64,000 nt of DNA. It comes from Thuidium tamariscinum. Its lineage: Eukaryota > Streptophyta > Bryopsida > Hypnales > Thuidiaceae. The position numbers and the translations under genes are program-made. The stretch is taken from NCBI GenBank assembly GCA_947034885.2, contig OX344753.2:17484001-17548000 (forward strand), read 5' to 3'. This document shows positions 2,101-59,868 of the stretch, piece after piece. How positions within the stretch are numbered: the stretch's first letter is position 1; every line of letters starts with the position of its first letter. Below the pieces are notes generated by a model. That model saw only the letters and a list, made by a program, of their open reading frames with translations, ran no database searches and was not told the DNA's origin.

Positions 2101-2906
2101 CGGACATAACCGGTTGTACATTTTTCAATTTCAATTACAACTTTTGATCTTCAAGTTCCAAGGGTGTAGGAAGCAAGTTGAAAGGAAAGAAGATTATGAG
2201 TTACAACTTGTCATGGCAACGGTGACGGGTTGCGTATGGGATGATGCCACATTAGCGTTGAAAAGTCAACCACCACATTGATGGTGAATTTCGTTAAAAT
2301 GGTGATATTCCATGTGCTATTTTTCAAACCATATCGTTTGAATTGAAAGCTAACATTTAGAACAAGTATAGATTTTTAGACATCAAGGATGTATAAATTT
2401 TTAAAATCTACGACAAATTTATATTACAAAATGCAGACCATGTGGTTTGAAATATCTTGGACAAGTATAGATTTGAAACATCTATGACATATATAGATTT
2501 TAGAATTTAGACCCAATGGTTTGAATTGTCAAATTAATGGAATTTCGCCATTTTCATGAAATTTGTCATACTAGTAGTAGTTTGCATCAATGAACGGGGA
2601 CTACCGACATTTAGTAGCATTGTAGCGGCCGACACACTTTCGGCCAATTTTTGAAAAAACCAGGATGGATGAAGTTCTAACAAAAATCTACCATTTGGCT
2701 CACAGAACTCCCCAGACTGTGGTTTGCATACTCAACTACCTATCTAAGCTTAAATGTAACCAAAGCCAAATATGAACTCATCCAATCCATCACGTAATTA
2801 GTTCAATAACTAATTAGTCATTTGTGATTTCAAAGTACCATATTTGATTATTGTGTATGTATTTTCTTGGTTATATTCTTGAACATTGAAATTTGGCCAA
2901 GAAAAT

Positions 2907-3998
2907 GGGTGAATGCAAGAAACACTTGTACTATTTGTTGCGTTTCGTCACACCCTTTTTTTTTCTTTTTTTTTTAGCCATAACTTTTGTGTCTTAGCTC
3001 CAAATGACTCAAAATTTATAAGGAAGCTACTCATGGCTGTTATGTATCTAAATTGAATTTTGGAGATTTTTCAAAAATAATTTATTATTTTTAAATAGCC
3101 CCCAAAATTTCTCACAATACTCAATTTAAGGGTTTTTAGCACCCCGTTTCTCCAAAAAAACGAATTTTGATCTAAAATTTGGAGAACATGGTCTCCTAGT
3201 AGACTTATACCTGCTGTCCAAAGGAATTCTAAAAATAATTATTTTTAAGTGTTGTAGAAGTCCACAAAGAGAGCTTCATTCTGCATTTTTTTCCAAAGGT
3301 ATAAAACATTGTTTTGGTGAGGATTTTGGTCAAATCTCATTACCAAAAAGTTTTTTCAAGTTTTTTATTTTTATGTATTTTTCAAAAAAATAATATTATT
3401 TTTAACAAATTAAAATGTCACAAGTTGTATTTTCTTCACCGGAACTTTGGACATAGAATTCTCATAGAATTCTGGTGAAAAAAATATAGCTTGTGACATT
3501 TTAATTTGTTAAAAATAATATTATTTTTTTGAAAAATACATTAAAATAAAAACCTTGAAAAAACTTTTTGGTGATGAGATTTGACCAAAAAACTCACCAA
3601 AATAATGTTTTATACCTTTGGAAAAAAATGCAGAATGAAGCTCTCTTTGTGGACTTCTACAACACTTAAAAATAATTATTTTTAGAATTCCTTTGGACAG
3701 CAGGTATAAGTCTACTAGGAGACCATGCTCTCCAAATTTTAGGTCAAAATTCGTTTTCTTGGAGAAACGGGGTGCTAAAAACCCTTAAATTGAGTATTGT
3801 GAGAAATTTTCGGGGCTATTTAAAAATAATAAATTATTTTTAAAAAATCTCCAAAATTCATTTTAGATACATAATATCCATGAGTAGCTTCCTTATAAAT
3901 TTCGAGTCATTTGGAGCTAAAACACAAAAGTTATAGCTAAAAGAAAAAGAAAAAACTAGGGTGTGACAAAAGGCTTTAAGTGTTTCTTGCATTCACCC
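2907..3998. mobile_element. 1.09-kb foldback transposable element (GGGTGAWTGC family, copy A)
   Basis: The two halves are near-perfect reverse complements of each other, meeting near 3450, with arms of roughly 500 bp. The ends are GGGTGAATGCAAGAAACACT on the left and its reverse complement ending ATTCACCC on the right. Flanking AAAT occurs at 2903-2906 and again at 3999-4002, a 4-bp target-site duplication. The arms match the left part of copies B-D, so the foldback probably arose by inverted duplication of one side of an ordinary member. No coding capacity is seen. Transcription across it would give a very long hairpin, a possible source of small RNAs. The 4-bp duplication with GGG ends does not fit any plant superfamily I can name with confidence. 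Confidence 0.85.
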
Positions 3999-4282: not shown

Positions 4283-4998
4283 GGCGATTGCAAATTTGCA
4301 AGAAACACTTGTCTTATTTTTTGTCACACCATGTGCACTAATTTGTTTTTTGGCCATAACTTTTGTGTTTTAATTCCAAATGACTTAAGATTTATAGAGG
4401 AAATATTGACGACTATCATACAACTTCTTTGATTTTTTGATAATTTTCAAAATAATTTACTATCCAAAAATAGGCCCAAAATGTCTATCATATCACTTGC
4501 TAATTTGGAGGTTTTTAGTACTATCAAGCGCCTTTATGAAAAGTTACATTGTGAAATTTTGTAGAGTGCTTTGTAGTACAAAAATACAACTTTCTATCGA
4601 AGGAATTTTTAAAATAATTAATTCTATGTGGTTTGGAAGTCTAACTTCTTTCTGCTTGCATTTTGAAGCATATAAAATATTATTTTCATGGTTTTTTTGT
4701 GATTGACCATCTCTATAAAGTTATTACAAATGGACAGTTTTTATTTTTGTATTTTCTTATTTATAATATTTTTAACTAATTTTTGAATCAAAGTACCTAT
4801 TTTCTTCAATTTTTGCACTTTTCAAGTTCTCCTACTTAGAGAATTTTTCTATCCATTTCCTTTGGTAAAAACCTTTGTCTCAAAGGTATATACATTAATC
4901 ATATTTTTTATATTTAAAAAAAATTAGTCTTATAATTTTAAAGTACTCCAGAAAAAAATCATGAGTATGTAGTAAATAGTACAAGTGTTGCAATCACC
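4283..4998. mobile_element. GGGTGATTGC-family element, copy B
   Basis: The left end GGCGATTGC is followed, after a small local duplication, by GCAAGAAACACTTG. The right end is ACAAGTGTTGCAATCACC. The interior shares with copies A and C the order GGCCATAACTTTTGTG, AAATGACTtAAGATTTATAGA and GGTTTTTAGTACT. It is about 716 bp, diverged and non-coding. No clean target duplication is seen (AACC lies 2 bp from the left end and directly at the right end). Confidence 0.7.
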
Positions 4999-5691
4999 AA
5001 CCACTCAATAGTATAGGAAAAAACCTAAATGTTGAAGTGTGAGAAGTTAACAAAATTGACTTTTAAATATTAAAAAAAGAATTTAATGTTAAAAAATAAG
5101 GGATACAATTAAGATCAAGATATCTAAAAAAAATTGGTTTGGGCATTTAGTTAATAGTTTAAAATTTATAGCATTCCAAAATTGAAACACAAGAAAATTG
5201 GCAAGACAGTGTGTCTTGCAATCATTCCTATAACTTTATTTCACATCCAATGAATTATCAACTCCTAAAGTTCTTTGACTACCAATATGTTTTCACCAAA
5301 AACACTCTAAAGATGCCATTTCTAGTAGAAGTGCCAAATTTTAGAAAAAATACGTTTTTGTTGGATGAATATAATTATAGAATCATGTGGTCATATAGCC
5401 TACATAACAGTATGTCCTAGTTTGAAAAGATATACAAAGAAATTTTGGAAATTTCTACCATGTATAAGCTTAGTACAATATATAAGCCTTTGAATTCCTT
5501 TTATGGCCTTGCCAAAAATAGGAGAGTTGCACTTCACAAGGTTACATTTAAATGAAAAATTACCTATATCATTGGTGCTTCTTTGGATTCACTCTTCAAA
5601 CCAAGTTGGCTATATACTTGAAAAAAAATTTAGATCATTTGGAATTGCACAACATATAGGACAAAAATTGTAAGTAGAAAGAAGTAGAAAA

Positions 5692-6423
5692 GGGTGATTG
5701 TAAGAAACACTTGTACTATTTTATATCACACGTGGTATGCTAATCTATTTTTTGGCCATAACTTTTTCATATTAGGTCTAAATGACTCAAGATTTATAGA
5801 GATGTTACTCAAGACTACTATACACCTTACTTAATTTTTTCATAATTTTCAAAAATAATATATAATCCAACAATAGACCCCAATTGAGTGTCACAATTGC
5901 CAATTTGGAGGTTTTTAGTACTACTTAGTACCCAAAAAACGAATTTTGAGGTGAAATTTGGATGAAGTGGTCTTCTAGTAGACTTATAGCTAATAGCCAA
6001 AGAAATTTAAAAATAATTAATTTTGAGTGGTATAGTAATCTACAAAGTGAGCTTTTTTCTACTTGTATTTTGAAACATATAAAATGTTATTTTTGTGGGG
6101 TTTTTGGTGAATTACCATACCTATAGAGCTGTTACAAATGGATAGTTTTTATTTTGTGTGTTTATTTTTTTGTATTATTTTTAACTAATTTAAACATCAA
6201 AATACCTATTTTCTTAAGGTTTGGCACTTTTCAAGTTCTCCTATAATTTAGAGAATTTTTCTAAGCAATTCCTTCTATGGGTACCTTCATCTAAGAGGTG
6301 TATACAAAAGTCTTATTTTTTTCAAATTAAAAATTAGTTTTCTAATTTCAAAGTACTCTAGAAAAAGTCATGAGTATTGTTGCAAAACGCAACAAATAGT
6401 GCATGTGTTTCTTACAATAACCC
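5692..6423. mobile_element. GGGTGATTGC-family element, copy C
   Basis: The left end is GGGTGATTGTAAGAAACACT and the right end is TGTTTCTTACAATAACCC, with terminal inverted repeats of about 30 bp. AAAA flanks both sides, consistent with a 4-bp duplication although low in complexity. The interior aligns by eye with copies A, B and D over its whole 732 bp, including CTAGTAGACTTATA near 5976 shared with copy A. Its right end carries GTTGCAAAACGCAACAAATAGT, which matches the outer part of copy A's arms. No open frame of note. Confidence 0.8.
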
Positions 6424-6853
6424 AAAATGATTCAAAATACTAAAATTGTTAAGAATTAAGTTATGAAATTGAAAAACACCAATATCAATCATTGTAATGT
6501 TGTACGAAGTATAAAACAATCTACACCCTATGGTTTTATTTTTTTTTCAAAAAATAGTGAAAATTGAGTTAAATGTAAGACTTCAAAGGTTATTTAGAGT
6601 AGGAATTAGGGAATCATGACTTCCCACAAACCAGAAGTAGGGAAATATTGGACAATCTCTTGCGGATGCCTAATATTTTCCTACTTGAGTCAATCTCAAA
6701 CCACTAATAGTCAATTTTTAGGCATATTTTAAAGAAGTTAAAGTATTTTTCTACCTATTTTCTTACTAATAAATTAATTTTCACCTTGTTTTCATTTCAT
6801 CCATTTTTATTGCCTAATTATTTGAATTTCAACCAATCAACTTCCAATTTTAA

Positions 6854-7782
6854 CCCCAAAAGCCCTAAATTGCATTTTTTGGCAACATAGAAATTTCAAG
6901 CAACTCATTACAAATGGAGATATCAATTTATTTTTCTTTAAAATTTTCACACAACATATGTCCAAAAATTATCTTTAAGGGCCAATAACTTTCATAACTC
7001 TTGAATGCATGGTTAAAAAGTTATTTTAAGATAAGTAGTTTTAATTGCTCCGAATAGGTAGCTAGCTTGGGCAACTTAAACTACTTCTTAAAAATCATCT
7101 TTTTTTAAATCATTTAAAAAAAATTGAAATCGATTTATCATATTTACTTATACGTGGAAATCTTTGAATCGTTCCATTTTCATTGATGAGATGAAAATTA
7201 TAATGAGCTCTAGTTTGTAGGTAGTTTGAAGGTAGTCATGGAATCTCTACTTTATGATAAACTTGAAGTCCTATATTTTTATTCAATTTTCAATATTTTT
7301 GGGAAAAAATAAAAACATTTGGTTTAGGTTGACATTCTTCAATTCCATAAATAAATTTTTAAAAATTTAGTATTTTGAATCATTATCTACTTCTTTTTGC
7401 TTATTATTATTTTCCTATATGTTGTACAATTTTAAATAATCTGAATTTTTTTTAGCATGTACCCAACTTGCTTTGAAGAATGAATCCAAAGAGTAACCAC
7501 TATTTTGAACATTTTGTATACAAATGTGCTCATCTAAAGTGTAGTTGCTTGATTTTCAGTGGGGCCAAAAATAGGACTTTTGTCAATTCAATTGCTAATA
7601 TCTTGCAATCTACACAATAGAAATTTTTGAGTTTTTTTCTACATCTTTTTACACTAGCTTACTACAATATCCTATGATTTTTTGTATCCAAAAATGTTTT
7701 TTTTCTAAAATTTTGTACTTGAACTAGAAATGGAAGTTGTCAAACACTTTTTGTTGAAAATATAGTTAAAGACCTTTAGGGG
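6854..7782. mobile_element. piggyBac-like non-autonomous element, long subfamily, copy 1
   Basis: TTAA at 6850-6853 is followed by CCCCAAAAGCCCTAAATTGC. The right end reads CCTTTAGGGG and is followed by TTGA (7783-7786), one base from TTAA. The interior (CATAACTcTTGAATGCATGG near 6994, and TATCTTGCAATCTACA near 7600) matches the copies at 58925-59864 and 37208-38016 in order. It is about 929 bp with no transposase frame. Flanking TTAA and CCC...GGG ends are the hallmark of the piggyBac superfamily. Assignment rests on ends and flanks only. Confidence 0.65.
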
Positions 7783-8180
7783 TTGACCAACTCATCTTAC
7801 ACTAACTGTCAGGTCTCCTTGGACAATGATGTGCACCAAATAATATGGCATATGGCTATTGTAAGGGGCCATACTTAGTCAATTCTTTTTTGTTTTGTTT
7901 TCGGTAGAGCAATTTGAACCTTAGAATGTATTAAGGGGAAAAAATTGATAGAATCACCTACATTTGTATATTCATCCACAAAATTGTCTACTATGATAAT
8001 CTTGAATCATTCAAATTTTGGCAAATCTATCATTTTTTGAGGGTTTTGGGTTTCATCCTATTTTTGAAACATTTCTCTAAGTGTTAAATTTAAGAAGTTA
8101 GTCTCAAATTCATGTAAGATTTTGGCCAAAATTTGTCAAATAATAATTTGTATAGCCATACAAGCCCACATATACTATAT

Positions 8181-8709
8181 AGGGTACAACCAAAAAAGCC
8201 TTTGACCTTAAAGAGCCATCTACAATCTATGTACATTTCTAAAATCAATTATGTACACAGACTGTAAATAGTGCTTTCAAAGACAGACTTTGATCCTAAA
8301 AAACTTTTGCACATTTGAGTTATTTGTAAAGTACCCTAAGCCGGGGTTTAAACCCATGAGTTTTGTGAAAAACTTGATATAGTTAAAAAGGTCAAAATAA
8401 AAGTGGGTAGGAAACTTATTTTCCATCAAAATGGTGCCTAAAAAAGTTTGGTCCCCACTTTTGAAGGCATGTGACATAAGTATCTTGCAAAAAAGTTTGA
8501 CGCTTCAACTATAGTTGCCTTCTCAACTTCAAAAAACGTCATGCCCAAAGTGGGGGGGGACTTTACAAATAACTCAATTGTATCTAAACATTCTTTGGTG
8601 CATTGGAATGTACTTTCACTTGCCAACAAGACTATATAAAAATTTGAATATCCTAATAATAGTAACTAGGCACAATACCAATTTTGGGCACTTTTTGGTA
8701 TATTCACCT
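8181..8709. mobile_element. TA-flanked short element (AGGTGGGTACACC family), interrupted copy
   Basis: The left end reads TAGGGTACAACC and the right end TATTCACCT followed by TA. The body (CCATCTACAATCT, TGTACATTTC, CTTTTGCACA, TTGGTGCATTGGAATGT, TAATAGTAACTAGGCACAAT) is the same series of words as in the copies at 10226 and 25529. The body is interrupted at 8313-8579 by a separate 261-bp element, so this copy is the older of the two. Confidence 0.65.
8316..8576. mobile_element. TGAGTTATTTGTAAAGT inverted-repeat element, nested copy
   Basis: The ends are TGAGTTATTTGTAAAGTACCC and GGGACTTTACAAATAACTCA in inverted orientation. ATT at 8313-8315 is repeated at 8577-8579 as a 3-bp target duplication. 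Removing the element and one ATT restores the GCAcATTGTATCC word found in uninterrupted copies of the host element. A second copy lies at 58440-58698 and is nearly identical in the interior (GGTTTAAACCCATGAGTTTT, AAAAGTTTGGTCCCCACTTT). It is non-coding and fits a small non-autonomous DNA transposon. Confidence 0.85.
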
Positions 8710-8833
8710 TAATCTGTATTTTGTTTTCAGATCTTCAAAACAAATGAGGTGGCCACAATGAATTTTTTTTCTATTTTCTTGTTTATATTGTATTATAATT
8801 TGCAATTGACCCCCAAATGCAATTAACCCTTAA

Positions 8834-9476
8834 CCCCTAAATGCCCAAGGCTTTTTTTGAGCTTCTTGGAATTTACTCTAAATTTCTTAAAAAGTCAACA
8901 TTTTGATAAGCTTTATCAATTTTTTTTCTATGTAACCATATAAATTCAAAATAGACATGTTAGAGATTACTTAGAAAAAAAAATTACAACAATATGACTT
9001 ATACATTGAAAGGTTATAATGTTTGATCATGAAGGTGTCAAAATTGCAAAAATGAGTTGAAGTCTTTCAATTTTCTTTTTACATGTCAAATCTTAAAACT
9101 TGGTCACCAAAAAACCATGAGGTTAAAGGGACTAATATACATATCTCCAATTACTTTATGGCTTCTCAAAATCTACCCTACAATTTTTTGTTATGAATTT
9201 CTAATGTGTTTTTTTCTCCAAGCTCTAGTATATTTGAGGTTCCTTTCCAAGAGCCCTCAACACTACAGAAAGTCAAGATTGCCATGGACACCTTTTCAAA
9301 AAATCTTGTATAGAAAAATTATAATTAATTATTTTCAAAATTAGACTTTTGATACTAAAATTAGACTTCAAAAAGAAGTTTTCAAAAACATAATCTAAAA
9401 ATAACAATCTAATTAGGTTTTATATATCCTCAACGTTTGCAATCATCCAAATTTTGGTTCTTTGGACATTTATGAG
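8834..9476. mobile_element. piggyBac-like non-autonomous element, short subfamily
   Basis: TTAA (8830-8833) is followed by CCCCTAAATGCCCAAGG. The right end reads CTTTGGACATTTATGAG followed by TTAA (9477-9480), so the inverted ends agree over about 17 positions with a few mismatches. It is about 643 bp. The frame at 9057-9344 resembles nothing I know and looks incidental. Confidence 0.65.
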
Positions 9477-10225
9477 TTAAAGGACGAACCTATAACCACT
9501 AATTCAAAGCTTCATTGTCATTGTCCATCACCCAATTTATGCCATTTTGAAGTAGATATGTGTGAAATTTTTTATATTTATTTACAAAGATGAAGTTACA
9601 TGTCTTCTGTACTTCACAAAAAAATGAGACTTTTTAGTAGAGAATTGTTTTTTTTTGAGAATTTCTTGAAGAAAAAGTGAAGAGAAATCACATCAAATGA
9701 AAAAATTATTTCAAGAAATCTGAAAATTTCATCATGTATGTATTTTACACTAACCGACATCATAATCATAGTATAAATTCAATTTTCGTGTCATTCTATT
9801 GAATGAAAATTTGATAGACATTGAAAATATATCCAAAGTTCAAAATGGCAGTAAAAAATTGAATTAAGGAATTTTTCCAATTTTCCAATTAGATTAGAAA
9901 CTAGAGTAGATGAACTTTATTTTGTTAAATGAGCTCAAACTTATAAAATGACATTTTTGTAGAGAGATTTCAGATTTAAAGCAACAAGTAGCAACTAAAC
10001 AAAATACACTAAAGTGGCATATTTTGTGATTTACTTTTTTACTTACTTCTCATTTATTTAAAGACAAACACTAGCAAGACTACAAATTCAATTATGTACG
10101 CTTTGTAACTCTCCATGAAAGGTCAAGAAGAAAAAAATGGATTAAAAAATGCTTTCAATCTCTCTCCAAATGACCTCATGTTCATTCCAAGGCCACAAAA
10201 TGGCATTGCCAACGTCATGGGGTTA

Positions 10226-10497
10226 AGGTGGGTATACCCAAAAGTGCAATTGATCTTAATGCTCCATCTACAATTTGTGTACATTTCCAAAATCAGTTAT
10301 GTACCTATTTAAATGGAGCACTTTTAAAAAGAAACTTTGACCATTAATAACTTTTGCATATTGTATCCAAATGTGGTGTTCTTGGTGCATTGGAATGTGT
10401 TTGCACTTGCAAACAATACAATATGAAAATCTAAATACCTTAATAATAGTAACCAAGCACAATATCAATTTGTGGTGCTTTTGGGTGCACCTACCCC
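10226..10497. mobile_element. TA-flanked short element (AGGTGGGTACACC family)
   Basis: The left end TA-AGGTGGGTATACCCAAAAG and right end CTTTTGGGTGCACCTACCC are inverted repeats of about 18 bp. The internal words TGTACATTTCCAAAATCA, AACTTTTGCATATTGTATCC, TTGGTGCATTGGAATGTG and TAATAGTAACCAAGCACAAT recur in the other copies. It is 272 bp and non-coding. Confidence 0.75.
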
Positions 10498-19646: not shown

Positions 19647-19920
19647 CATTAGATGAAATCTGAGGGCATTACAGGGCCGTTTCGGGTCTATTCCCGAAAC
19701 GGCTCCCATTGCCGCAGACCCCTGTCAGGCCGACTTTTATCAAAAAATAAAAAAATAAATTTTTTTTTGGGTCTTGAAATATGAAAATAAGTCCAAAACA
19801 ATTTTTTTTTATTACGTGGCAAAGTCCCGACCACGTAGGATTCGAGTTCACAGGGCAGAAACTACGTTCCCGCAGTCCGGGAACCTACAGTCTCCTAATG
19901 CCCTCAAATTTCTTCTAATG
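19647..19920. mobile_element. CATTAG-family inverted-repeat element, copy 1
   Basis: The left end is CATTAGATGAAATCTGAGGGC and the right end GCCCTCAAATTTCTTCTAATG, inverted. Internally TTACGTGGCAAAGTCCCGACCACGTAGGATTC carries a short palindromic GTGG...CCAC block that recurs in the other copies, in the opposite orientation. It is 274 bp and non-coding. Confidence 0.75.
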
Positions 19921-25060: not shown

Positions 25061-25528
25061 TTGGAACTTTGCGGAACAAAAGCAGATACCAAAGCATGTA
25101 CTACTTATTTCCCAAGAGTATTTTTTGTTCTTTTGACACATGGAACGTTGTTTGACTCTCAGGTTTATTGGTTAAGTTATGCAGATCCACGTGGTAGTCA
25201 CGGATTCGGAATGCAAAGGGGCGTGCACAGTGTAGTCCAAGAACAGAACAGATTGATGGTTTTCAATGACTTATTCTTCGAAAAGTCTCATACTGGTACT
25301 TCGAAATCTCTATACCTTGAAACTGTAACAATTTTCTGCTTCCCTCCTACAGAATACGATATTGTCCTGCTTATCCTACACACATCGAAGAATTTCGGTA
25401 AAGTAACACTCGGATCCTCGCAGCTCTCCGCAGTAGATAACATCAGAATTGTTACGGAACAACGCAGTTTGCCACATGCATTTAGTCCGATGAGATTCGT
25501 GTCCAGGGACATGTGCATTGTGATAGTA

Positions 25529-25781
25529 AGGTGGGTACACCTAAAATTGCAACTCACCTAAAAGTGCCATCTATAGTTGCTGTACATTTCTGAATTCCAT
25601 TATGTATCGATTTGGCTACTTTGAACTTTAATAACTTTTGCATACCGTATCCAAATGCTGCATTTTTTGGTGCATTGGAATGTGCTTTCACTTGCCAAGA
25701 AGACTATATGAAAATTTGATCAGACCAATAATAGTTACTAGGCACAATATCAAAAAGTGGTACTTTTAGGTGTACCCACCT
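25529..25781. mobile_element. TA-flanked short element (AGGTGGGTACACC family), intact copy
   Basis: The perfect-looking ends AGGTGGGTACACCTAAAA and TTTTAGGTGTACCCACCT are inverted, with TA on both outer sides. It is 253 bp with the family words TTGGTGCATTGGAATGTG and TAATAGTTACTAGGCACAAT inside. TA flanks suggest Tc1/mariner-type (Stowaway-like) mobilisation. Confidence 0.8.
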
Positions 25782-26434
25782 TATTCTTTTATGGGTTTGG
25801 CTTATCTTTGCTTCTAGCGCCCGATCTGAGAAACCACAGGATCCATTTTTAGAAATTGTAATAAATAATAGAAATTTCTCCAAACTAGTAATTCGTGAAT
25901 AGCATTCTTTCTTCTCTTCATGGATGCATCATGGGAGTCCTCGACCTCGAGCTTCCGTCGTGAACATGATTGTTGGGTGAAGTGAAGATTTTGAAACATT
26001 GATCAAAGTTTGATGTCTCTTGCTTGAAGGTGGCCTCTAACTTAATGCCCCATTTGAATCTCCTTGACAATCCTATGATCCTCTTCTTCCTGAGGAACTC
26101 TATAGTAGAGGTATCCATTACTACCCACCCACCAATAGGGTATCCTATTTCCAAGAGTGGAATGGATTTCCATTTTTTCAAGGTTTGGATCTATAGGTTA
26201 ATGACACATAAGTGAGCACGAAAGTAGGAAGTAATTAGAGAGAAAATAGTTTTTGAATGATTGAAATTAGATGATTCTAGATGTTAGTCATTGGTCAAGT
26301 TTAACTTTTGTCTTTCAAAATTCATAGTAATTTCAATTTGAAAGACAAAATTATGAAATTTTTTGCAATCTCCATTAATTTTGTCAATGCACCTCTTAAA
26401 ATATTTGCTTTGCCTTGCACTAACCTAGATGATG

Positions 26435-26706
26435 CATTAGGGGATTTTTGAGGCCATTGGAAGACTACGGGTTCTAGGACTGTAGGAATATAGTTTTTGC
26501 CACATGAACAGAAATCCTACGTGGTCGAGAGAGTGCCACATCATAAATTTATTTATTTTTGAATTTTTTTTCCATATTTCAGGACCCCCAAAAAAATTAA
26601 ATTTTTTTAGTGTAAATGCTAGCTTGACAACAGCCAACAGTTACAGGAACAGTTTTAGGGGATAGCCCCGAAACGGCCCTTTGGAGGCCTCAAATCCTCT
26701 CTAATG
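26435..26706. mobile_element. CATTAG-family inverted-repeat element, copy 2
   Basis: The ends CATTAGGGGATTTTTGAGGCC and GGCCTCAAATCCTCTCTAATG are inverted. Internally CCTACGTGGTCGAGAGAGTGCCACATCAT corresponds to the block in copies 1, 3 and 4, followed by a T-rich tract and ATATTTCAGGACCCC. It is 272 bp and non-coding. Confidence 0.8.
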
Positions 26707-31071: not shown

Positions 31072-31352
31072 CATTAGAGGAGATTTAGGGTTGCAAAAGA
31101 TTGTGATTTCTCGGACTATGGGAATACAAAATCTATGAAAATCTGCTCCAGGAACCACAATCCGATGTGGTCGAGTGAGTGCCACATCATTGACTTTTTT
31201 TTTTGGTAAAAAAAAATTTGGATGTTTTTTAACATTTCAGAACCCCTGTTTTTTTTTAGTAATTGTTGGCCTGATAGTAGCCAACAGTTATGGGAACGAT
31301 TTGGAGAATAGTCCCGAAATGGGCTCTTGGAGCCCTCAAATCTCCCCTAATG
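31072..31352. mobile_element. CATTAG-family inverted-repeat element, copy 3
   Basis: The left end CATTAGAGGAGATTTAGGG and right end CCCTCAAATCTCCCCTAATG are inverted. GATGTGGTCGAGTGAGTGCCACATCAT matches the conserved internal block of copies 2 and 4. It is 281 bp. Confidence 0.8.
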
Positions 31353-34906: not shown

Positions 34907-37900
34907 TTAAAGGTCCTTAAAGAGTAGTTGATCATCAGCTGAAAGGACAAACTCATGTTTCATAGGACCTAGCTTTGAATAATCATCAAAACAACTTGTA
35001 TCATCTTTAGACTGTACCCACCAACAACCAAAAATCAAGAAGTGTCATTTGTGTTCATTTAGAAAAAACAATACAATTCAATGTGATATAAAATTTATTA
35101 TGTGTACAGAATAAACTACTGCAATTTGATAAAGTATTATAAATTTTTTTTATTTTGTCTTAAAAGAGAATTAATATTACTTTTAACCAAAATGTTGACC
35201 CATATTTTATAGAATACTTTTTACTAAATGCTTAAAACAAAAATTATCTTTGAAATATATTTTTTATATTAAAAAAAATATCAAGGTCTTTATATATGTA
35301 AATCTAAAATTAAACATACAGAAACTTTAGGCCGAATTGGAGGAATGTCTTTCTTTTCAAGAACAGCATCCCAATCAACAGTTTGAAACCATGCATGAGT
35401 TTTTATGTCCTTAACACCTCCTTTCAAACACCCGATCCTATAAAATTATATATAATCAATATTTTAAACTAGTATATATTTTGTTGCATATTTTAAAAAG
35501 TAGATACTACAACAAAATTGTAAATGATAAGAGGAAAATCATATTATTCATTGGCCAACTTCAAAAATTTATATTGTATACTCAATGAACAATACCTCTT
35601 AGTCAAATCAGCTACTAAAAGTTTCTTCAACAAATCTTTTGCACTACATAGCAATACCATCAAATGATATACATTTTATAATCACTTGAATGATTTGATA
35701 ATGAATAAAAATAGAATTTATTTCAATCTTAAATATAATTTTTCTTACTAAATCTTGGAATAGATTGATTTCTTCAAACCTAAGAGATCTTTTTGTAAAA
35801 ATTGTTGCCTAATTTTAAGTTACTAAAAGAGTTGAGACATATTGAAACAAGTTATCATCATGTAGTTTTATTATGAATTAATACTAATATTGCAAAGACA
35901 AATTTATTAAAAAAAATAATGCAACTACTTAATTTTTTCCTTTCAACAAGTATATACTATTTGGAGAAAGTTTTTCTTTTAGCATATATATATTTTTTAA
36001 ATGAAAATGATGAAATTTTATCCAAAATTTACTAAAACTACTCTTTAATTTAAAGTTTAAAATTCAAGAGTAATTTTAGTAAATTTTTCATAGAAACAAA
36101 ATATGATGCTTCTTATTTGACAAAAAATTGTAAATTTGTAGTCTTTAGTTCTTAAAGATCAACAAGTAGTTTAAATTTTCAATATTATAAAGATGTATTA
36201 TTGGATACAACCTAGAATAATAATTTAACAATTACTCTCAAAAAACATTTGGAAAATATAATCCATAGATCATTTCTATATGGTTAAATCAACTACTGTA
36301 GATTATATTTTGGCAACTTCTATCTCTTTGTCCCTTCATTACACATAATTGCAATTTTGACAATCTAAATGATTTGAATGATATATTTTTAATTTGAACT
36401 CAATAAATAAACAAAACTTACGTAGCCTAATTTCCACATTCATATGAAATTTTAAGAAGAATGAAAAATTAACTAATTGATTACAATTTGAATTTTTGGT
36501 TCATAACTATAGCCTACTAAATTTTGGAATATAAAAAAACATAGAAATTTGTTTTTTCCTTTGATGCTTTATACCATAGCACACACCTTTGATGAAAATG
36601 TTCATATTTATAAATATTTTTGGAATTATCATGAATTTTCTTATTTTCTTTGTAAAATGTTATAAGAGTTCCAAATCTTCCCCTCGAATTCTTAAATTTT
36701 TGGTGACTTAGAAAAGGCATGTGATTCATTTCTAGAAATGAAAAAGATAATAATCTTTGAATATTTATAATGACTAAATGGGTCTTAGAAATTGAAAATA
36801 ATTGAAGCTTTACAATAACAATAAGCCTATCCTTGCATCGTATGCTAGTTAATAGGCTTAAAATAAGGTGATTTATGTTTACTCAATCCCATGTACTTAG
36901 ATAGATATGTAAGGCATGGAGTAAGGTGGCTACAAGTAAAATCACACTTTGTCTAAAATCACCATCATCACTACATCTACATTTCCAAAATCTATATGTA
37001 CGTATGTTGAAAAAACAATTTTAGAACACCTCCCATTCATAACTATTGTATGTGGTATCTAAAATGTTGCATTCTTTGGTGAGTCAAAATCCTCTTTCAA
37101 TTGCCAATAAGAAAAGAGGAAAATTGGACCAATCTAATAATAATAATAATAGTATTTAGTAACTAGGTACAATAGCACAAAGTGATGTTTTTTAAATATC
37201 TACTTTACCCTTAAAGGACTATCTATCCCCTAGAGATATACAATTTTGTAAGAATTTTGTAGATATATAATTTTTATTTCAATTGGTGCTTAGGAGCAAA
37301 AATAATGGCACTATAAGCTAAAATGGAGTTTGGCAAGTAGTACAAAAAAATACAAAAAGTCAAAATATTAAAAAAAAAAATTCACTCAAAGATTATATTT
37401 CTTTTCTATATGTGAAGCTTTCTTTCATTCTATTTAGAATAGTAAAGAGAAAGTTATGGATAATCTTAGTTTTTTGGACAATCTAAACATCTTTTTGAAA
37501 AAAACACTTATAGAATTCATTTTTGAATGCAATTTTCAAAATTTCTCAAAAGAAATTGCTAGACAAGGTTAGATTTCCTTACTAGAATAGTATCACCATT
37601 GAAATGATTGTAATTCAATTCCATCTTAAAGCTATAAACAATTTAGTTTTTTCTTGAACCTACCTCTACTTAACAAATTTTTAATGAGCAAAAAGGGAGA
37701 GGGGGTGTATGTTTCCTAAATTTTTTTGGTAGATTCTCAACTCAACTATTTAACATAAATAAGTAAAAAAATTTATCAATAGTGCAAAAATTTTGAACTA
37801 AAAAAGATTCAAAGCCAAAGAATCTAGTCAAGCAAGGTGTAGAAAACTTGTTTTCTTCACTTTAAGTGCAATTATCTTACAATCTACACAATCAAAGTTT

Positions 37901-40900
37901 CTGAAATTTCTTCCACGTCTTCATATACTAATTAAGTATAAGATCCTATAAAAAAACACTTAAAACTGTCATTTCTATTGCAAAGAAAAAAAGACTATCA
38001 CATTGGTCCTTTAGGGTTTAGGGTGGAGACAAGAGTACCTTCTTGAAAAATGCCCAGGAAACTGCACTTTTCCACTGAGGATCTTTTGGTAAGTGCCAAC
38101 AGCATCTGTAAAGTAGAAACAGGTCAGAATTCAGTGGTTCAAACTGCCATCATGTGATATATCAATCTTTCATTGCAGGTTCAACATAAAATTAAGAAAT
38201 TACTGCCCCCCCAATGCCACATGACATCTCACTAAATTGGCCAACAACCATGATACACAAACGTGGAAGTTCAATTCAGACAAGATCAGTTTACCAATCT
38301 ACTTTCAAATGTGTGCTACCGTATTTAACAGCCAGATAACATTTACTCTAGATGGCATGCTTATATTACACAATGTACACGATTACACTCAAAATCCCCA
38401 ACACATTATATGTCACAGTTCTTGAACTATGTCTTAGGTTGGAGCACCCCAGTGATTATCTCACCATCATCATAAAAAGGAGGATAACCAGCCAGCATCT
38501 CATATATCAGAACTCCAAAAGTCCACCTGCCTTACAGCAGACCAAATAATCATTTGTTAAATTGCATGTAAAATGAGAAACAAAATGGTGTCCATGTTCA
38601 AAGACAAATCAACTCATAAGTTTCATAAGCAGATTTAAACCTTAGGGGTTTCATTGACCAATTCTAGACAAGTTGGGTAACAGAGTCCCTGACAGAAACA
38701 GGGCAGATTTCCACCAGAATTTCATAGACCTAAAGTCTTAAGTTGTATTGAGAACACTATGGCTGATGGCTGATGGGTGAATTTCATCATAGTGTTTACC
38801 CATCACCCATCACCATCACCCATCAGCAATCACCATAGTGAATTTCATAGACCTAAAGTCTCAAGTTGCCATCACCCATCAGCAATAGTGCACCAGAGTA
38901 TGAAAAGTGAGATTTGTTTCCATCCCTACATTGTGCTTGAAGAACAGCAGAATCACTGAGTAAATAATGTCTGCCACTTCTATCAGAACTTTAATCATAA
39001 GCAATGATAAATACTTTACCAGTCAACAGGCTTGCCATGACCTTTATTCAAAATGATCTCAGGTGCAAGATAATCAGGTGTTCCTGCATTAAGCCCCTAC
39101 AGAGACCAGTTACAACCACAAGCAACTACAAATGCTGTAATACAATTGAACTACTTTAAAAGAACTACCCTATGCATTTAACAATAATTCCATGCAGAGG
39201 TAGGACGTAACAGGGTCTTACCACACAATGTATATGTTCTGCGGTCAATTTGCTTAGCAAACCCAAAATCAGTGACCTTGATGTTGCCTTTCTCATCAAG
39301 CAGCAGATTCTCAGGCTAGCAGCAGGAAACTCCCCAATATTCAATAGACCTTTAAACAAACTGGATACCTCCTCTAAACACAAGTAACCTTGTGAAACCA
39401 TTTTGAGAGAAATAAGTCTCAGGGTGCGAAGTATCTACCTTGAGGTCTCGGTATATGATATCCATGTTATGCAAATACTCAAATGCACACAGCACTTGAG
39501 AGGCATAAAATCTCTGCCATGGCCGTCAATGTGTTAGACTCAGTTGAATTTGGAATGTCACAATGCCATAGGTCATTCAGCTTGAACATCATTGTAAGTA
39601 GAAGGCATGTTTGGCACTAAATAATTCAAATTTTGTGAATCAAAAAAGGATTCACGTGTCACGTAGTAAGAAACTCTTGAACAAAAGACAAAAGAGGAAA
39701 TTTCATTTCGGCAGCTAAGTGCTGAGCTCACCCTCCAGTTATGGTGATTGGACTGGCTACCCCTTTTTTCCTATTTAGTGAACGATACACTAATTTCATG
39801 GGCCCATGATACACTACGAACACCACATATTATTGTACCTATTGATAAACGCAATTGATTGATGCTCACTGTTTTTGCTTATAAACCAGTTCTATGGACT
39901 GAGTGCAAGTAGATAAATGTAAACTGATCCACGAACAAATTAACATTGCATCATTTTGAACACTCTCAGTGAGGATGAGTTATTCTTCAAGAATGGCTTA
40001 CAGTAGTCTGCTCATCAAATCGCCCAGTACTGCGAAGGTACGTGAAGAACTCGCCCCTGAAAAAACACAATCAAGCCTTATAAGAAAACATCATAGAACA
40101 CAACGTGTCAATCAGACTCTTACTGCAACTAGAATCATTCTCCAGGAAATCCAGGCCACCCTTACCCACAAACATATTCTATGATAAGATGCACACACTG
40201 ATCATCTTGGCAATATCCAAGCAGATTAACCACGAAAGGATGCGATATCCTGGCTAAGATGGACTTCTCTTGCTTCACGTGCAACACCTGCCACATCAAC
40301 CCCACCATGAAGTGTCAATCTTAAGGTATATAAATTACATAACAATTCACATGATCTGAACTTGCATGTAATATCTGTTGACAGTACCTTTCATCTCAAC
40401 GAGACTCTTGCTAATACATGCAACTAGTTCGATTGTCAACCCATTTAGATCCAATAGGATTTTCAGTCAGATTACTGTTTCAAGAACATAATTACATATA
40501 AGAATCTTCATTATAATGAAGATATGATTCATCGAGAGAGCTTCCTGTGATCACAGTGACCATATAAGAGTCTACTTTTGTATCATGGGAGGCCACTGTA
40601 GTCAGAGTAAATTGCGGGAAAGATTCTCTTTATAACGTCGTCTAAAAGACGTATGAATTACGGTAATCTATATACTGATTAACATACTGTTATTGGAAAA
40701 ATTATTACTCCGTCATGCATACTCATTGTTTTGTGATTCCTAATCTGTGCATTAGATGCAAGAATACCACTGTGTACTAAATCAAAATGAAGTCAAGAAT
40801 GCGTTACCTGCTTCGTTTTCACAATGGAAGCCTTGGACAAAGATTTGGTGGCACAAAGTGTACCCGTGGGAGTGTGAGTTGCCAAATGAACTCGACCAAA

Positions 40901-42714: not shown

Positions 42715-43512
42715 CCCCTATATGCCCAAGCCTTTTCAAGTGTGTTTTGACTATGAATAATGTGCATGGACTTGTAGTCATCCCTAATAAAGCAAATTGA
42801 TTTTTTTCAAAATCTAACCGCATAGATGTTTAAAGAGCTTGTTTATTAGTAAATATACAATTTTGAGCACAAAATTGCATTGGAATTGTAAGATTATAAC
42901 AAGAGAAGAGTACATTTTCTATATTTAGTATGCTACCTTTTTCCACAATGTTTCTCAAATTTGCATATAAATTTTTGGGGGGATTTGAGGTGACATGAAC
43001 AACTACAAAAAGTGTTAGCACACTAGAATGCACTTCTAAAAAACTTAATTTTACATGAAAAGCTATTAAATTCAATACATAATCCACCTTGCAATTGTTG
43101 AAATGCAATTATTTTGATAAATAGAAATTGCAAATAACTCCAAATTAATTGTTGTATGTTTAAATTTTCAATGGTGAATGTCATGAAAACACTTTCCTCT
43201 TTCCATTGGGACCATTTTCAAAGTAAATGGATATGTAAAATTTTTTAGATCTCAAATTAAGTGAAATTGCATAAAGCTAGGAAATGAAGTAAAATTGGCA
43301 GGCTTTACACTTCACTTATGGTACATGTATGCCTTTGAAGACCTTTCAATAATCAAATATGTACTTTTTTAAGTGAAAAATGAAAGTTTTCAATAGTTAA
43401 TCCTTAAAACTGCTCGAATTTTTTTTAAACGGTCACAAGAATTTAACTACCCATTCAAAAATGGGCCGAAATTTTCAGATCGACCATATATGGTCGATTG
43501 AGCACTTAGGGG
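42715..43512. mobile_element. piggyBac-like non-autonomous element
   Basis: TTAA (42711-42714) precedes CCCCTATATGCCCAAGCC, and GAGCACTTAGGGG is followed by TTAA (43513-43516). It is about 798 bp. The left end is close to that of the element at 8834. An internal CGACCATATATGGTCG palindrome lies just inside the right end. No transposase frame. Confidence 0.65.
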
Positions 43513-46229: not shown

Positions 46230-50826
<4,597 letters not shown>

Positions 50827-51400: not shown

Positions 51401-51643
51401 GGCGGTTAAGAATTTCGAATTCCCCATAAATAAAGTCATTTTGTAAAAAAAAAGTGCCACGTGTCATCTTTTGATTAGTGTGAGGTGTCAATTTAGATCT
51501 TCATATATGAGTAGTTGGGATCTTTAACAATAATATTGTATATAAGAATAGTATGAGTCTCTTTTGCATTCTTAAAAAGAGAAGCCCAAATATTGAACTT
51601 TTCTTATTTTTTGAAATTTATAACTAATTGTTTTCAACATTAA

Positions 51644-52212
51644 CCCTAGAGCGTCTAGAATCATGTCCAAAATTGACAATTTGGAAAGAATCATTATAAA
51701 GTCCTCTTTGGAAGAATATTTTGGGATTGTGATACAATCAAAAGTTATAAATTTTGAATTTTAGATTCTATCCATATAGTTAGATTCTCTAATGCTTTCA
51801 CCAATATTTTTCTATAAATTTTGAAAGGAAAATTTCAAAATTCCTTCAAAATTCAATCACAAGCAAAATATTGTCATTTTCAAAGTGAAACTTGTTGGAG
51901 TGGGTTTGAAATGAGGTTCTCTTCATATGGTGATTTTTTGAAGTCTTTTTGTTCTTTAATTCTATGACCTCATTTTTGCAAATTTGGTTTTTAACTACAG
52001 TCAACACAAAGTCAACCACTTGACATACTTCAACATTTGTAATTTTAGAAATTCATATATTCTAGTAATACCAAATCCAAACCTTGGATAGAACAAAAAC
52101 TTCATAAAGAATTTCTAAAAATTAAGATGACTTCCATCCAAGCAATAACAAGAGAGAAAAGTAATTTTGAATTTGTTCATTGTCCAGAAATTGACGTTGG
52201 CACACTCCAAGG
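51644..52212. mobile_element. piggyBac-like non-autonomous element, CCCTAGAG subfamily, copy 1
   Basis: TTAA (51640-51643) precedes CCCTAGAGCGTCTAGAATC, and GGCACACTCCAAGG is followed by TTAA (52213-52216). Reverse-complemented, the right end reads CCTTGGAGTG against CCCTAGAGCG on the left. The 569-bp body is nearly collinear with the copy at 56525-57092, for example GAAACTTGTTGGAGTGGGTT and AATTCTATGACCTCATTTTT. Non-coding. Confidence 0.75.
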
Positions 52213-52216
52213 TTAA

Positions 52217-53780
52217 ATAGGGGTACTTAGGAGACTCATGCTAATTAATTTCATACCATAATATAAGTATTTACCTTTGTTATACAAAATAATCATCATT
52301 CCTTTAGTTCTTCAACAAACAACAAATGGTAACCCTATTCTTTTATTGTAGCTTAATTTTTATAAAAGAGACTACAAATAGCTTCACTATTTTCAAAGAT
52401 TACACATGGTGACCCCACTCTTTTGTTGCAAATTTAGTTTGGTATATTGTCATTGGAGACTTATGACTAAATACACACTTGTTTTCACCACAAGGTAAGT
52501 TATATACAATAAGTCCCTTTAATTTTTTTGGTCCCTTCAATACTTCTATTCAATGTAGTTATCTAAAAAAATAAAAATAAATTACTAATGCTATAATATA
52601 AATTCTAAATATGAACTCAAAATTTTCATTCTTGCTAAGTAGTACATTTCATATTTGAATTCATGATTATCTTTAGAACATCTAAAAATACAAAAATATC
52701 TACTAGCAAATATGGGAGATCTTTATAATTATCCATAAATGAAGCAATGAGGAGATCAAATATCTTTGGCTCTCAAAGCCTACATACTTTCAAAGTTTAA
52801 AAAAAAAAATCATAACTATATTGATTTGTTCTATCGGAGCACATTATATAAACCAACGATGCTAGTGTGAGCATGAACATGCAAGCATGTGAGCTTGATA
52901 TACTACCACCTTTGAAGGTGTTTATAGTAAAAATACCTATAATATAGGTATCTATAGTATAAATGTATTTTTATTATAAAAGGTTTCTATAGTATAAGCA
53001 TCTATACTATAGGTGCATCCTCTTTGACGCTCATAAGCTTACACTTCTATACTCATATACTAGCAATCATGTCATATAAACTATGACTTTCAAATTTGAA
53101 AATTTTCTACAATAAATTATGATTTTATGATTTAAAAATTATAAGTATATAGATTATCAAATATTAAATTTTTTTTTAATTTTTAAAATCTAAAATAAAT
53201 CTAAAATCATAATGAAGATAGATCAATTAATTTCTTTTGTAGAAATATTACTAATCTTCACAAAGAATTTTCCTTTGTGATCTTCAAGTTAGAGATGGAC
53301 ATCCATGCTTTTTCTTCTATTTTGACTACTTCAATCTTTCTATCTTTTGATTACCAACTTTTGTAATAAATTTGATTCCTAAAGGATGTTGAAAACATTT
53401 GCCTTGATGGTATATAACATGCAATTTAGGATATGAAGATGTATTCAAAGATGAAAGAAAGTCAATTGACTTTAATTTTTTGTAAAATCAAAAAATATCA
53501 ATGAAAATGATGTGCAAGATTTATAGATTTTTTCAATGTTACTATGTAATCTTCAAAAATCATTGTATTTATAAACAAGCAAAAATGGTGCAATTTTGCT
53601 TCTATTGTCTATTGTCACTTTATTGAGGCAAGGACCATGGAAAGAAATACCAATTAAATCACTTGTCAATTTCTGAATTGCATGGAATGACATGCTTGTT
53701 GCAAATGAGCCATACTTTTCCTTTGTAATTTAAGAATGTTTTCAAATGAAGTAATTTGTTTATACATAATTACTAATAGA
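52217..53780. other. AT-rich intergenic DNA
   Basis: Nothing gene-like. A run of CTATAGTATAAG-type short repeats lies near 52920-53010. No inverted-end element was found. Confidence 0.5.
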
Positions 53781-56408: not shown

Positions 56409-56520
56409 TTAACCCTAGAAGGCCCACGGCCATTTTGGGTTCAAAAAAATTGTAGCTTTTGAAGTGCTATAAATGTAAATGTGACTAAGTAATACACATC
56501 TTAACCGTACAATCTTGTAG
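56409..56520. repeat. Partial piggyBac-like end
   Basis: TTAA (56409-56412) followed by CCCTAGAAGGCCCACGGCC resembles the left ends of the neighbouring elements. No matching right end lies before the next element begins at 56521, so it is a solo end or truncated copy. Confidence 0.4.
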
Positions 56521-56524
56521 TTAA

Positions 56525-57092
56525 CCCTAGAGCATTTGGAATCATGTCCAAAATTGACGATTTGCGAAGAATCATTATAAAGTCCCGTTTGGAAGAATAT
56601 TTTGGGATTGAATAACAAATAAAAGTTGCAAAATTTTGAGTTTTAGATTCCATCTGTACAGTTAGATTCCCCAATGCTTTCCCCAATATTTTTCTATAAA
56701 TTCTGAAAGAAAAATTCCAAAGTTCCTTCAAAATTCCTTCAAACAAAATATTGTCATTTTTCAAGTAAAACTTGTTGGAGTGGGTTTGAAATGAGGTCCT
56801 CTTCATATGGTGATTCTCTTAAATTTTTTTGTTCTTTAATTCTATGACCTCATTTTTGCTAATTTGGTTTTGAACTACAATCAACATAAGTCAACTCCTT
56901 GACATACTTCCACATTTGTAATTTTAGAAAATTATATACTCTATTAATACCAAATCCAACCCTTGGATAGAAGAAAAACTTCATTAAAAATTTCTAAAAA
57001 TTAGGATGACTTCCATCCACACAGTAATAAGACAAAAAAATAATTCCAAATTTGTTCATCATCCAGAAACTAGACGTCAGCGAACTCTAGGA
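56525..57092. mobile_element. piggyBac-like non-autonomous element, CCCTAGAG subfamily, copy 2
   Basis: TTAA (56521-56524) precedes CCCTAGAGCATTTGGAATC, and GCGAACTCTAGGA is followed by TTAA (57093-57096). The inverted ends agree as CCCTAGAG and TCCTAGAG. It is 568 bp and near-collinear with copy 1 at 51644. No transposase frame. Confidence 0.78.
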
Positions 57093-57163
57093 TTAAATCT
57101 TGCAATCATGACTTAGAAGAAATAATCATCCTTTGCTTTTGGTAGGCAGAAGAAGAAACAAAT

Positions 57164-57689: not shown

Positions 57690-58435
57690 TGCAATTGGCA
57701 CTTAATACTAGAAAATAGGCAACTTACTTGCACGTTTTGTCATGCAAACAGATGTAGGTTGAGTCTAACATGCTAAGATCAATAGTTGCGCATGTGGCAG
57801 AATGTGCAGGGAGGTGCCCACTCTCAAGTGTTAAAAGTAGGCATGAATACCTTGTTGAATTACAAAATTAGTAAAAAAATTGGCAAAATTGGCCTCTCAC
57901 CACCTTATCGTAGATATTGCACCCTAACTTAAACAAGAAAATGGCCAAATAAGCATGGCCTACTTTTAACAGCTCAATTGTACTCAATTGATAGAAAAGA
58001 AGATGCTCATTCTATATGCCAATTGAGAGTTACCGACCAGCCTTGTTAATTGTTATGGACAACTTGTAAGTTTGAATTAATGCAAATTGCAAAGGTTGGG
58101 ATGCTTCCGTGAATCGATCAATCAAGTTGTGATGGAGTGCGGAGTGAGTATGTGATCTTCAGACCATGGTCCTCCTCCACAATCAAACTTAAAAACAATG
58201 TTTGGGAGGAATTAGCAGCTAGTTCAAAGTTAGTTGGTGAAATTGGGAAAAAATCCACTTGTAATTTGAAAACATTGGCAAAAAATCAGTGAAAAAATCT
58301 ATTTTTAGTTTTGAGTATAAAACAGAAGAAATAACCAAACTCTAAACTTGAAAAACAACTTGATCTAGAAATCGAAGAAAAATAGCTAGTAAAACTCAAA
58401 AAACTTTCCAAAATGTTGCTTGAAAACTTATGGAT
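57690..58435. other. Intergenic DNA without recognised features
   Basis: AT-rich, no convincing open frame, RNA gene or element ends. Confidence 0.45.
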
Positions 58436-58439
58436 CAAT

Positions 58440-58698
58440 TGAGTCATTCAAGAAGTACCCTAAATTGGGGTTTAAACCCATGAGTTTTGTGAAAAAGCCG
58501 GTTAAGTTAAAAAAGTTGAAATAAAAGTAGATATGAAACTTATTTTTCCATCAAAATGGTGCCTAAAAAAGTTTGGTCCCCACTTTTGAAGTTGTATGAC
58601 ATATGTATTTTACAAAATGTTTGATGCTTCAACTATAGTTGCCTTTTCAACTTAAAAAAAAGTCATGCCCAAAGTGGGGGGACTTTACAAATAACTCA
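58440..58698. mobile_element. TGAGTTATTTGTAAAGT inverted-repeat element, copy 2
   Basis: The left end TGAGTCATTCAAGAAGTACCC is a diverged form of the family end; the right end GGGACTTTACAAATAACTCA is intact. AAT at 58437-58439 and 58699-58701 is the 3-bp target duplication. The interior is nearly the same as the copy at 8316-8576. It is 259 bp. Confidence 0.85.
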
Positions 58699-58924
58699 AA
58701 TATTGTGCTCTTAAAGATCTAATTGAGCTTCAATTTTGGTTTGTACTATCACTAGAAGAAAGTTAGAAGCCTTTAACATGACTTCAACACAATCTAGATG
58801 ATGTTTTACGTTGACTGCAACACAAATTTGCAAATTCTCTTTGGTCACAGAATAGAAAGAATGAACATTGCAATATTTTTTATTCTTTTAAAAAAAAATC
58901 AAGTTGGGAATAAGTGTAACTTAA

Positions 58925-59864
58925 CCCCTAAAGCCCTGAGCATCGTTTTTTGAGATTATAAATTTTTTGGACAGCTCACTACGGATGGAGTTTTTGTTGT
59001 TTTTCTTTGAAATTTTGACACAATGTGTGCCCAAGGAGTAGCTTTGAGGCCTGACAATTTTCATAACTTTTGACTTCACGGTTAAGAAGTCATGGCAGGA
59101 TATGTTGTTTTCTTTACTCGGCGAGTAGATCGGGCAACTGAAAAAACTTCTTCAAAATTTTTTTTTTATAAAAGTGAAATTTCAAATTGGTTCTTTAGGT
59201 TTATATAAACATGGGAAGATTTGAATCAATCCATTCCCATCAATGAGTCAAAAGTTATGAAGATTTTGAGTTTGGGGTAGTTTGTAGCCAGTTACAGAAT
59301 TTCTACAGTACAAAAAAAGTTTGAAATTCTTCATTTAATTCAATTTTTCATATTTTTGGAAAAAAAAAAAAAAAAAGGTGTAGATTGTTTATTACAACAT
59401 TTTAACCATTGGGATTGAAAATTTTCAATTCCATGAATAAAATGTTCACAATTTAGTATTTTGGCTCACTTTTTACTTCTTTCTACTTACTTATCTTTTC
59501 TTATATGTTGTACAATACCAAATGGTTTGAAATTTTTTGAGAATGTAGCCAACTTGCATTGAAGTATGAATTCAAAGAGTAACCACCATTTTGAATTTTT
59601 TTCACACAAATGTGACCTTGTGAAGTGCAGCTGCCCGGATTTTCACAGGGATAAAAAAACAATTTTTGTCAATTCAAATGCTTATATCTTGCAATCTACA
59701 TGGTAGAAATTTCTGAAATTTTTTCCACATGTTTACAAACCACCTTCCTACAAGATCCTACGGTTACATGAGTCAAAAATGTGTTTTAAAAAAAATTGCA
59801 CTTGTATTAGAAATGACAGTTTTGGAGAATTTTTGGTGAAAACATAGTCAAAAACCTTTAGGGG
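58925..59864. mobile_element. piggyBac-like non-autonomous element, long subfamily, best-preserved copy
   Basis: TTAA (58921-58924) precedes CCCCTAAAGCCCTGAGC, and ACCTTTAGGGG is followed by TTAA (59865-59868). The inverted outer ends CCCCTAAAG/CTTTAGGGG are exact. The 940-bp body matches the copies at 6854 and 37208 in order. A 17-A run lies near 59360. No open frame of transposase size, so it needs an enzyme from elsewhere. Confidence 0.8.
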
Positions 59865-59868
59865 TTAA

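Follow-up and report, generated by a model that had tools for sequence, protein, structure and literature searches.

The seven short elements delimited in the window (the whole stretch of 64,000 nucleotides of Thuidium tamariscinum analysed here) almost certainly belong to the piggyBac superfamily as non-autonomous, MITE-like elements of a moss, presumably spread by enzymes that the same genome encodes outside them. This interpretation is drawn from TTAA junctions at copies across the genome, shared ends, paralogous empty sites, and transposases carrying the PF13843 domain encoded in the same genome. The original prediction had read the elements as piggyBac from their ends and flanks, and that reading is supported both by the TTAA found on each side of 22 of 25 further copies and by the presence of PF13843 within TTAA-bounded elements.

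Short elements of the window

All seven proposed intervals and their flanking tetramers read as had been claimed. They are listed here with a further family A copy that had been overlooked in the window count and with the string at 56409, which had been put forward as a solo end making an eighth element; no element could be delimited around this string, and it stands as end-like sequence only.

58925..59864, + strand: family A element, 940 bp, TTAA on both flanks, non-autonomous
6854..7782, + strand: family A element, 929 bp, left flank TTAA, right flank TTGA
about 5260-6631 (limits approximate), − strand: third family A copy, decayed, broken at about 5692-6423 by another repeat
51644..52212, + strand: family B element, 569 bp, TTAA on both flanks
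56525..57092, + strand: family B element, 568 bp, TTAA on both flanks
42715..43512, + strand: family K element, 798 bp, TTAA on both flanks
8834..9476, + strand: family J element, 643 bp, TTAA on both flanks
37208..38016, + strand: family H element, 809 bp, TTTA on both flanks
56409..56422, + strand: end-like string and perhaps a solo piggyBac end, its 14 bases recurring at the start of an end found in locus L013

Five of the seven delimited elements are thus flanked by TTAA on both sides, one by TTAA and TTGA, and one by TTTA on both sides. Ends beginning with CC or CCC had been described for all of them; the ends are mostly of the CCC type, the exceptions being one end each of the elements at 8834 (CTC), 51644 (CCT) and 56525 (TCC). 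The first 10 bases after TTAA in the 56409 string equal those of the right end in L013, a locus that bears a transposase gene. When the left and right ends of each element were compared over their first 14 bases, 10, 11, 9, 11, 8, 7 and 10 positions matched, against a mean of 4.1 matches for random TTAA pairs of the window, 3.3% of which reach 8, so that the family B ends (8 and 7 matches) are not convincing by this test alone. The motif TTAACCC occurs 8 times in the window (first-order mean 5.1) and GGGTTAA 3 times (mean 4.9); bare motif enrichment was dropped as proof, these counts being near chance under a first-order model.

The boundaries of the elements are established instead because homology stops at TTAA and because copies are found across the genome. 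When the window was compared with itself, identity was 70.5% between 6850-7784 and 58921-59866 and 86% between 51640-52218 and 56521-57098, each alignment setting in at the left TTAA and stopping in, or just past, the right-hand tetramer; the element at 6854-7782 also aligns end to end with family A copies in L011 and L026. Three size classes with shared interiors had been proposed, and this held for the 930-bp and 569-bp classes, within each of which (and nowhere else) an interior is held in common, but not for the 643-, 798- and 809-bp elements, which have no interior common to one another, although about 93 bp of the 809-bp element recur in the 930-bp class. Since these last three interiors are all distinct, the window holds five families (A, B, J, K and H).

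Copies across the genome and their junctions

In order to follow the families beyond the window we searched the moss's own assembly (363 Mb in 19 contigs) and scored the best 40 of the 7048 candidates for family A, 2817 for family B and 1634 for family K, so that the copy numbers given here are lower bounds and the candidate totals do not count copies. The 40 candidates scored, each set including the window copy, were all nearly full length for families A and B, and full length for family K, with identities, besides the window copy itself, of 91-94%, 88-91% and 93-94% respectively. Genome copies of the window families have their ends in common whilst their flanks are unrelated. Junctions were read at full-length copies ranked high in each list, passing over C1:46090222 in family A, where the match does not extend to both ends, and top-of-list family B copies that did not cover positions 1-569. 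As had been anticipated for genome-wide boundaries, TTAA stood on both flanks of 10/10 other full-length family A copies, 5/5 family K copies and 7/10 family B copies, the remaining three of which were flanked by TTAA/TTGT, TTAA/TTGA and ATAT/ATAT. The last of these, C2:1174314-1174882 (in L096/L097), is bordered by a non-TTAA duplication, and for such ATAT/ATAT and TTTA/TTTA copies rare insertion off target is the best reading. For the moth element of T. ni, integration in cells is overwhelmingly at TTAA whilst excision tolerates other flanks, as stated in the part of the source available (PMC7351741).

Family J has two further copies, at 78-79% identity, one in L014 and one in L012/L019; these two loci overlap by 4,000 bp of the same genomic stretch, and the J copies seen in both are therefore one copy. 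L019 also holds a related family H copy with TTAA on both sides, inside which a transposase-bearing piggyBac is nested.

Empty sites

The flanks of insertions were joined with one TTAA and compared with the DNA read in this analysis; all the empty sites are diverged paralogues rather than alleles. Spanning paralogues were found for 14 of 60 joined flanks, giving 41 alignments, in which the site read exactly TTAA in 16, was one base off in 14, further off in 6, and carried a gap or insert in 5. A single ungapped tetramer was therefore present at 36 of 41 paralogous empty sites; the predicted single TTAA was borne out to that extent, exactly in the 16, and not in the five gapped or inserted cases. 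A first set of 26 joins gave four with spanning paralogues and seven alignments (TTAA 1, one base off 3, further off 3), and a second set gave 4/23 and 15 alignments (TTAA 10, one base off 4, insert 1). Among the family B joins, 5/10 had spanning paralogues, with 18 alignments (TTAA 5, one base off 6, further off 3, gapped 4), the four gapped cases counting slightly against a clean TTAA there. These four, family K copies aligned to the join for insertion B_L080, are the closest paralogues of all (87-91% identity).

Some of the empty sites lie in the window itself. One family A copy is nested in an older A copy, for which the corresponding empty sites in the window are at 58965-59156 (TCAA) and 6875-7049 (TTAA), and the following stretch is the empty counterpart of the family H insertion in L019:

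26242..26389, + strand: empty paralogue of the L019 H-element site, with a single tetramer, TCAA, at 26315-26318

As a general result we encountered neither copies bounded elsewhere than at TTAA, nor empty sites lacking a single TTAA, nor copies linked to a transposase of another superfamily, the three outcomes that had been named in advance as speaking against the piggyBac reading.

Transposase genes of the genome

A transposase source elsewhere in the genome had been expected, and a search of the assembly with the PF13843 profile returned 116 scored matches from 658 candidates (best E 5.7e-80), 74 of the 116 having no stop inside the match, whilst none of 14 control genomes gave a PF13843 match. 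The matches are spread over contigs C1 to C10, about 345 of the 363 Mb, which makes contamination an unlikely explanation. We read 22 loci around these matches, 20 at first and two later; L005 and L007 were fetched but left out of the end analysis. In 20/20 domains examined, the residues aligned with D268, D346 and D447 of the T. ni enzyme, together with the following D, are kept, and pairwise identity amongst these domains runs from 35 to 100%. The L009 transposase (1009 aa) matched piggyBat (9c0f) at 1.1e-27 and T. ni piggyBac (6x67) at 1e-22, its aspartates lining up with the catalytic ones of the T. ni enzyme, and gave a DDE_Tnp_1_7 match at 4.9e-79; its C-terminal tail, read by eye, is Cys/His-rich, with no Pfam match there.

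An end pair flanked by TTAA, mostly CCC...GGG, was assigned at 18 of 20 transposase loci, of which 12 rest solely on a pattern search requiring T[TCG]AA, and the elements so bounded measure about 4.9-6.0 kb. Boundaries were placed by alignment in L009/L010/L011, L016/L017 and L021/L076, and the L020 pair was added after its ends had been read. No complete end pair was found at L013 and L022 (2/20 loci). Alternative left-right pairings were dropped where a better pair existed. The TTAA-bounded, gene-bearing elements read in this genome encode PF13843.

One group of these elements is nearly uniform. The elements in L009, L010 and L011 are 5,088 bp each and differ by 1-3 bases (divergence inside the group <0.1%), with homology stopping at TTAA. 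An open frame of 1,023 aa has the same length in 11 copies, and in all eight further copies with this frame these ends recur where predicted, with TTAA/TTAA and different flanks, so that TTAA stands on both sides in 11/11. Assuming a rate of about 1e-8 per site per year, three differences would correspond to no more than tens of thousands of years. Because some transposase-bearing elements are so nearly alike they probably jumped recently; intact enzyme genes are present, full-length piggyBac elements have probably moved in the recent past, and the system may be active at present.

Ties between the short and the transposase-bearing elements

The right end of family K matches the left end of the element in L020 over 37 columns at 86%, including TTAA, and the left end of family J equals the left end in L021 at 19/19 bases, again including TTAA. 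For family A, the right end agrees with the one in L077 in all of its first 18 bases, TTAA included, and at 61% over 328 columns in register; it also matches in register in L021 and L076. No transposase-bearing element with ends nearly identical to those of a window family was present among the 22 loci read. A PF13843 gene inside the same ends had been sought; the gene does lie within TTAA-bounded elements, but their ends are similar to those of the window families and not identical, and the link is therefore one of similar ends and in-register subterminal sequence. Judged from sequence, such end similarities give good grounds for tying the short elements to the superfamily and fair grounds for tying them to one lineage, but they do not prove which enzyme moves which family.

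The lack of full identity between the ends is one of two observations favouring the alternative that the window families, although of piggyBac type, are orphans whose own transposase lineages have gone and which the present enzymes cannot move. The other is the 6-9% by which the A, K and B copies of the window diverge from their best scored relatives, compared with less than 0.1% in the young transposase-bearing group. On the other hand, the 22 loci were read around 116 scored matches, so closer partners may exist, and L077 does carry those first 18 bases of the family A right end. We regard orphaned families as possible, though doubtful. We lean, by a modest degree, towards a living moss piggyBac of many lineages, in which at least one transposase-bearing group has moved very recently and large derived MITE families, whose sizes are here thousands of first-look candidates and not verified copies, are a main source of insertions.

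Mobilization by Kolobok, or by another superfamily that duplicates TTAA, would account for the target duplications equally, since Kolobok also makes them, and the Kolobok transposase differs from that of piggyBac. Short inverted ends beginning with CCC are a feature of the piggyBac family, whereas the ends of Kolobok are 5'-RR...YY-3' according to the portion of the source available (PMC9587614); those observed here have pyrimidine starts and are mostly 5'-CC...GG-3'. As noted above, the gene-bearing TTAA-bounded elements encode PF13843, in a genome that was searched with the PF13843 profile, and a Kolobok-like origin is very improbable. That the elements are TTAA-CCC strings beside chance repeats in AT-rich DNA, with nothing mobile, would agree with the motif counts of the window, which do not exceed the first-order model, but can be dismissed with near certainty given the many nearly full-length copies at unrelated sites, which share the same end base and TTAA on both sides, and the empty paralogues with a single tetramer.

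Under the piggyBac interpretation the window elements, which lack a transposase gene of their own, would have retained ends of the type that a piggyBac transposase binds and cuts, and transposases encoded elsewhere in the genome may have mobilized them. By analogy with the known piggyBac mechanism, the enzyme would nick both ends and form a TTAA hairpin, and the element would be joined into a new TTAA, thereby duplicated. For T. ni piggyBac, excision proceeds via a TTAA hairpin, the ends are joined to TTAA on integration, and the donor site is thus repaired without a footprint (PMC7351741, the part available).

Relation to known elements

piggyBac is best known from insects, and it is a workhorse of genome engineering, usually in its moth-derived form. 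A survey from 2003 reportedly listed piggyBac-like sequences in plants. The moss elements resemble T. ni piggyBac (IFP2) and piggyBat in their TTAA flanks, CCC...GGG-type ends and homologous core with catalytic aspartates. They differ in their host, in the length of the transposase-bearing elements (the 4.9-6.0 kb given above), in the size of the L009 transposase (1009 aa against 594 aa for the 6x67 chain), which has a long N-terminal part, and in domains that, within one genome, are as low as 35% identical. The accessible part of a review lists PiggyBac among the MITE superfamilies of flowering plants (PMC10004981); like the window elements these MITEs are short, non-autonomous and classed by ends and target duplication, whilst in the moss transposase genes are present in TTAA-bounded elements and the flowering-plant MITEs are classed there by interior, ends and target duplication. 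Repeat tables, as far as the available parts of the papers go, record 1,230 PiggyBac hits totalling 122 kb in C-fern (PMC6890710) and a single hit of 75 bp in Stipa (PMC8319324), in both cases as counts without structure or activity. The moth piggyBac works in rice and, as of 2017, was untested in Physcomitrella (PMC5505980, in the part available). One further paper retrieved (PMC10619864) uses just the word piggybacking.

The superfamily had been called poorly documented in land plants. PMC10004981 and PMC6890710, in the parts available, do record piggyBac in plants, which qualifies that statement. We found no description of piggyBac elements in a moss in the literature searched. Already known, then, are the superfamily and, in the same part of PMC10004981, piggyBac-type MITEs named in flowering plants, whilst what is new, as far as the literature searched shows, is a moss piggyBac that bears transposase genes and has probably moved recently. 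If the reading of a living moss piggyBac of many lineages is true, no earlier piggyBac system described in a land plant would have been both structurally complete and recently mobile. It would extend recent piggyBac mobility to land plants, for which the literature found offers MITE classes, repeat-table counts and use of the moth element only, and would allow full elements and their short derivatives to be followed together in one genome. The intact, near-identical moss copies could also provide a plant-adapted transposase with its ends, testable for footprint-free excision in plants.

Other features of the window and genome

Several unrelated repeats and gene pieces accompany the elements in the window. 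Another repeat family, four copies of which, 66-74% alike, lie within 3.5 kb, includes the interrupter of the decayed family A copy:

2900-3436: first copy
3478-3998, − strand: second copy
4296-4968: third copy
5698-6377: fourth copy, the one that interrupts the third member of family A

A repeat of about 270 bp occurs at 19647-19920 (−), 26435-26706 and 31159-31352, two of the copies having inverted ends CATTAG/CTAATG and a MITE-like appearance. Another, likewise of about 270 bp and with GTGGGTA-like inverted ends, is found at 8182-8715, 10224-10495 and 25527-25787, and one of its copies is split by a 280-bp repeat (8300-8577) that recurs at 58423-58699 (86%). Host gene pieces of an ordinary kind encode a cytochrome P450 (12897-14946, + strand) and a helicase C-terminal part (47816-48460, − strand); a tRNA search found none.

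Elsewhere in the genome, a LEAFY gene, by which the host was recognized as a moss, lies on C4, with five further, weaker SAM_LFY matches. The best match of its DNA-binding exon is 4bhk (E 6.8e-71), which we take to be the Physcomitrella LEAFY protein, and the exon has D and C as does 4bhk, at the positions of H and R in Arabidopsis LEAFY (2vy1), the D/C pair presumably being a mark of mosses.
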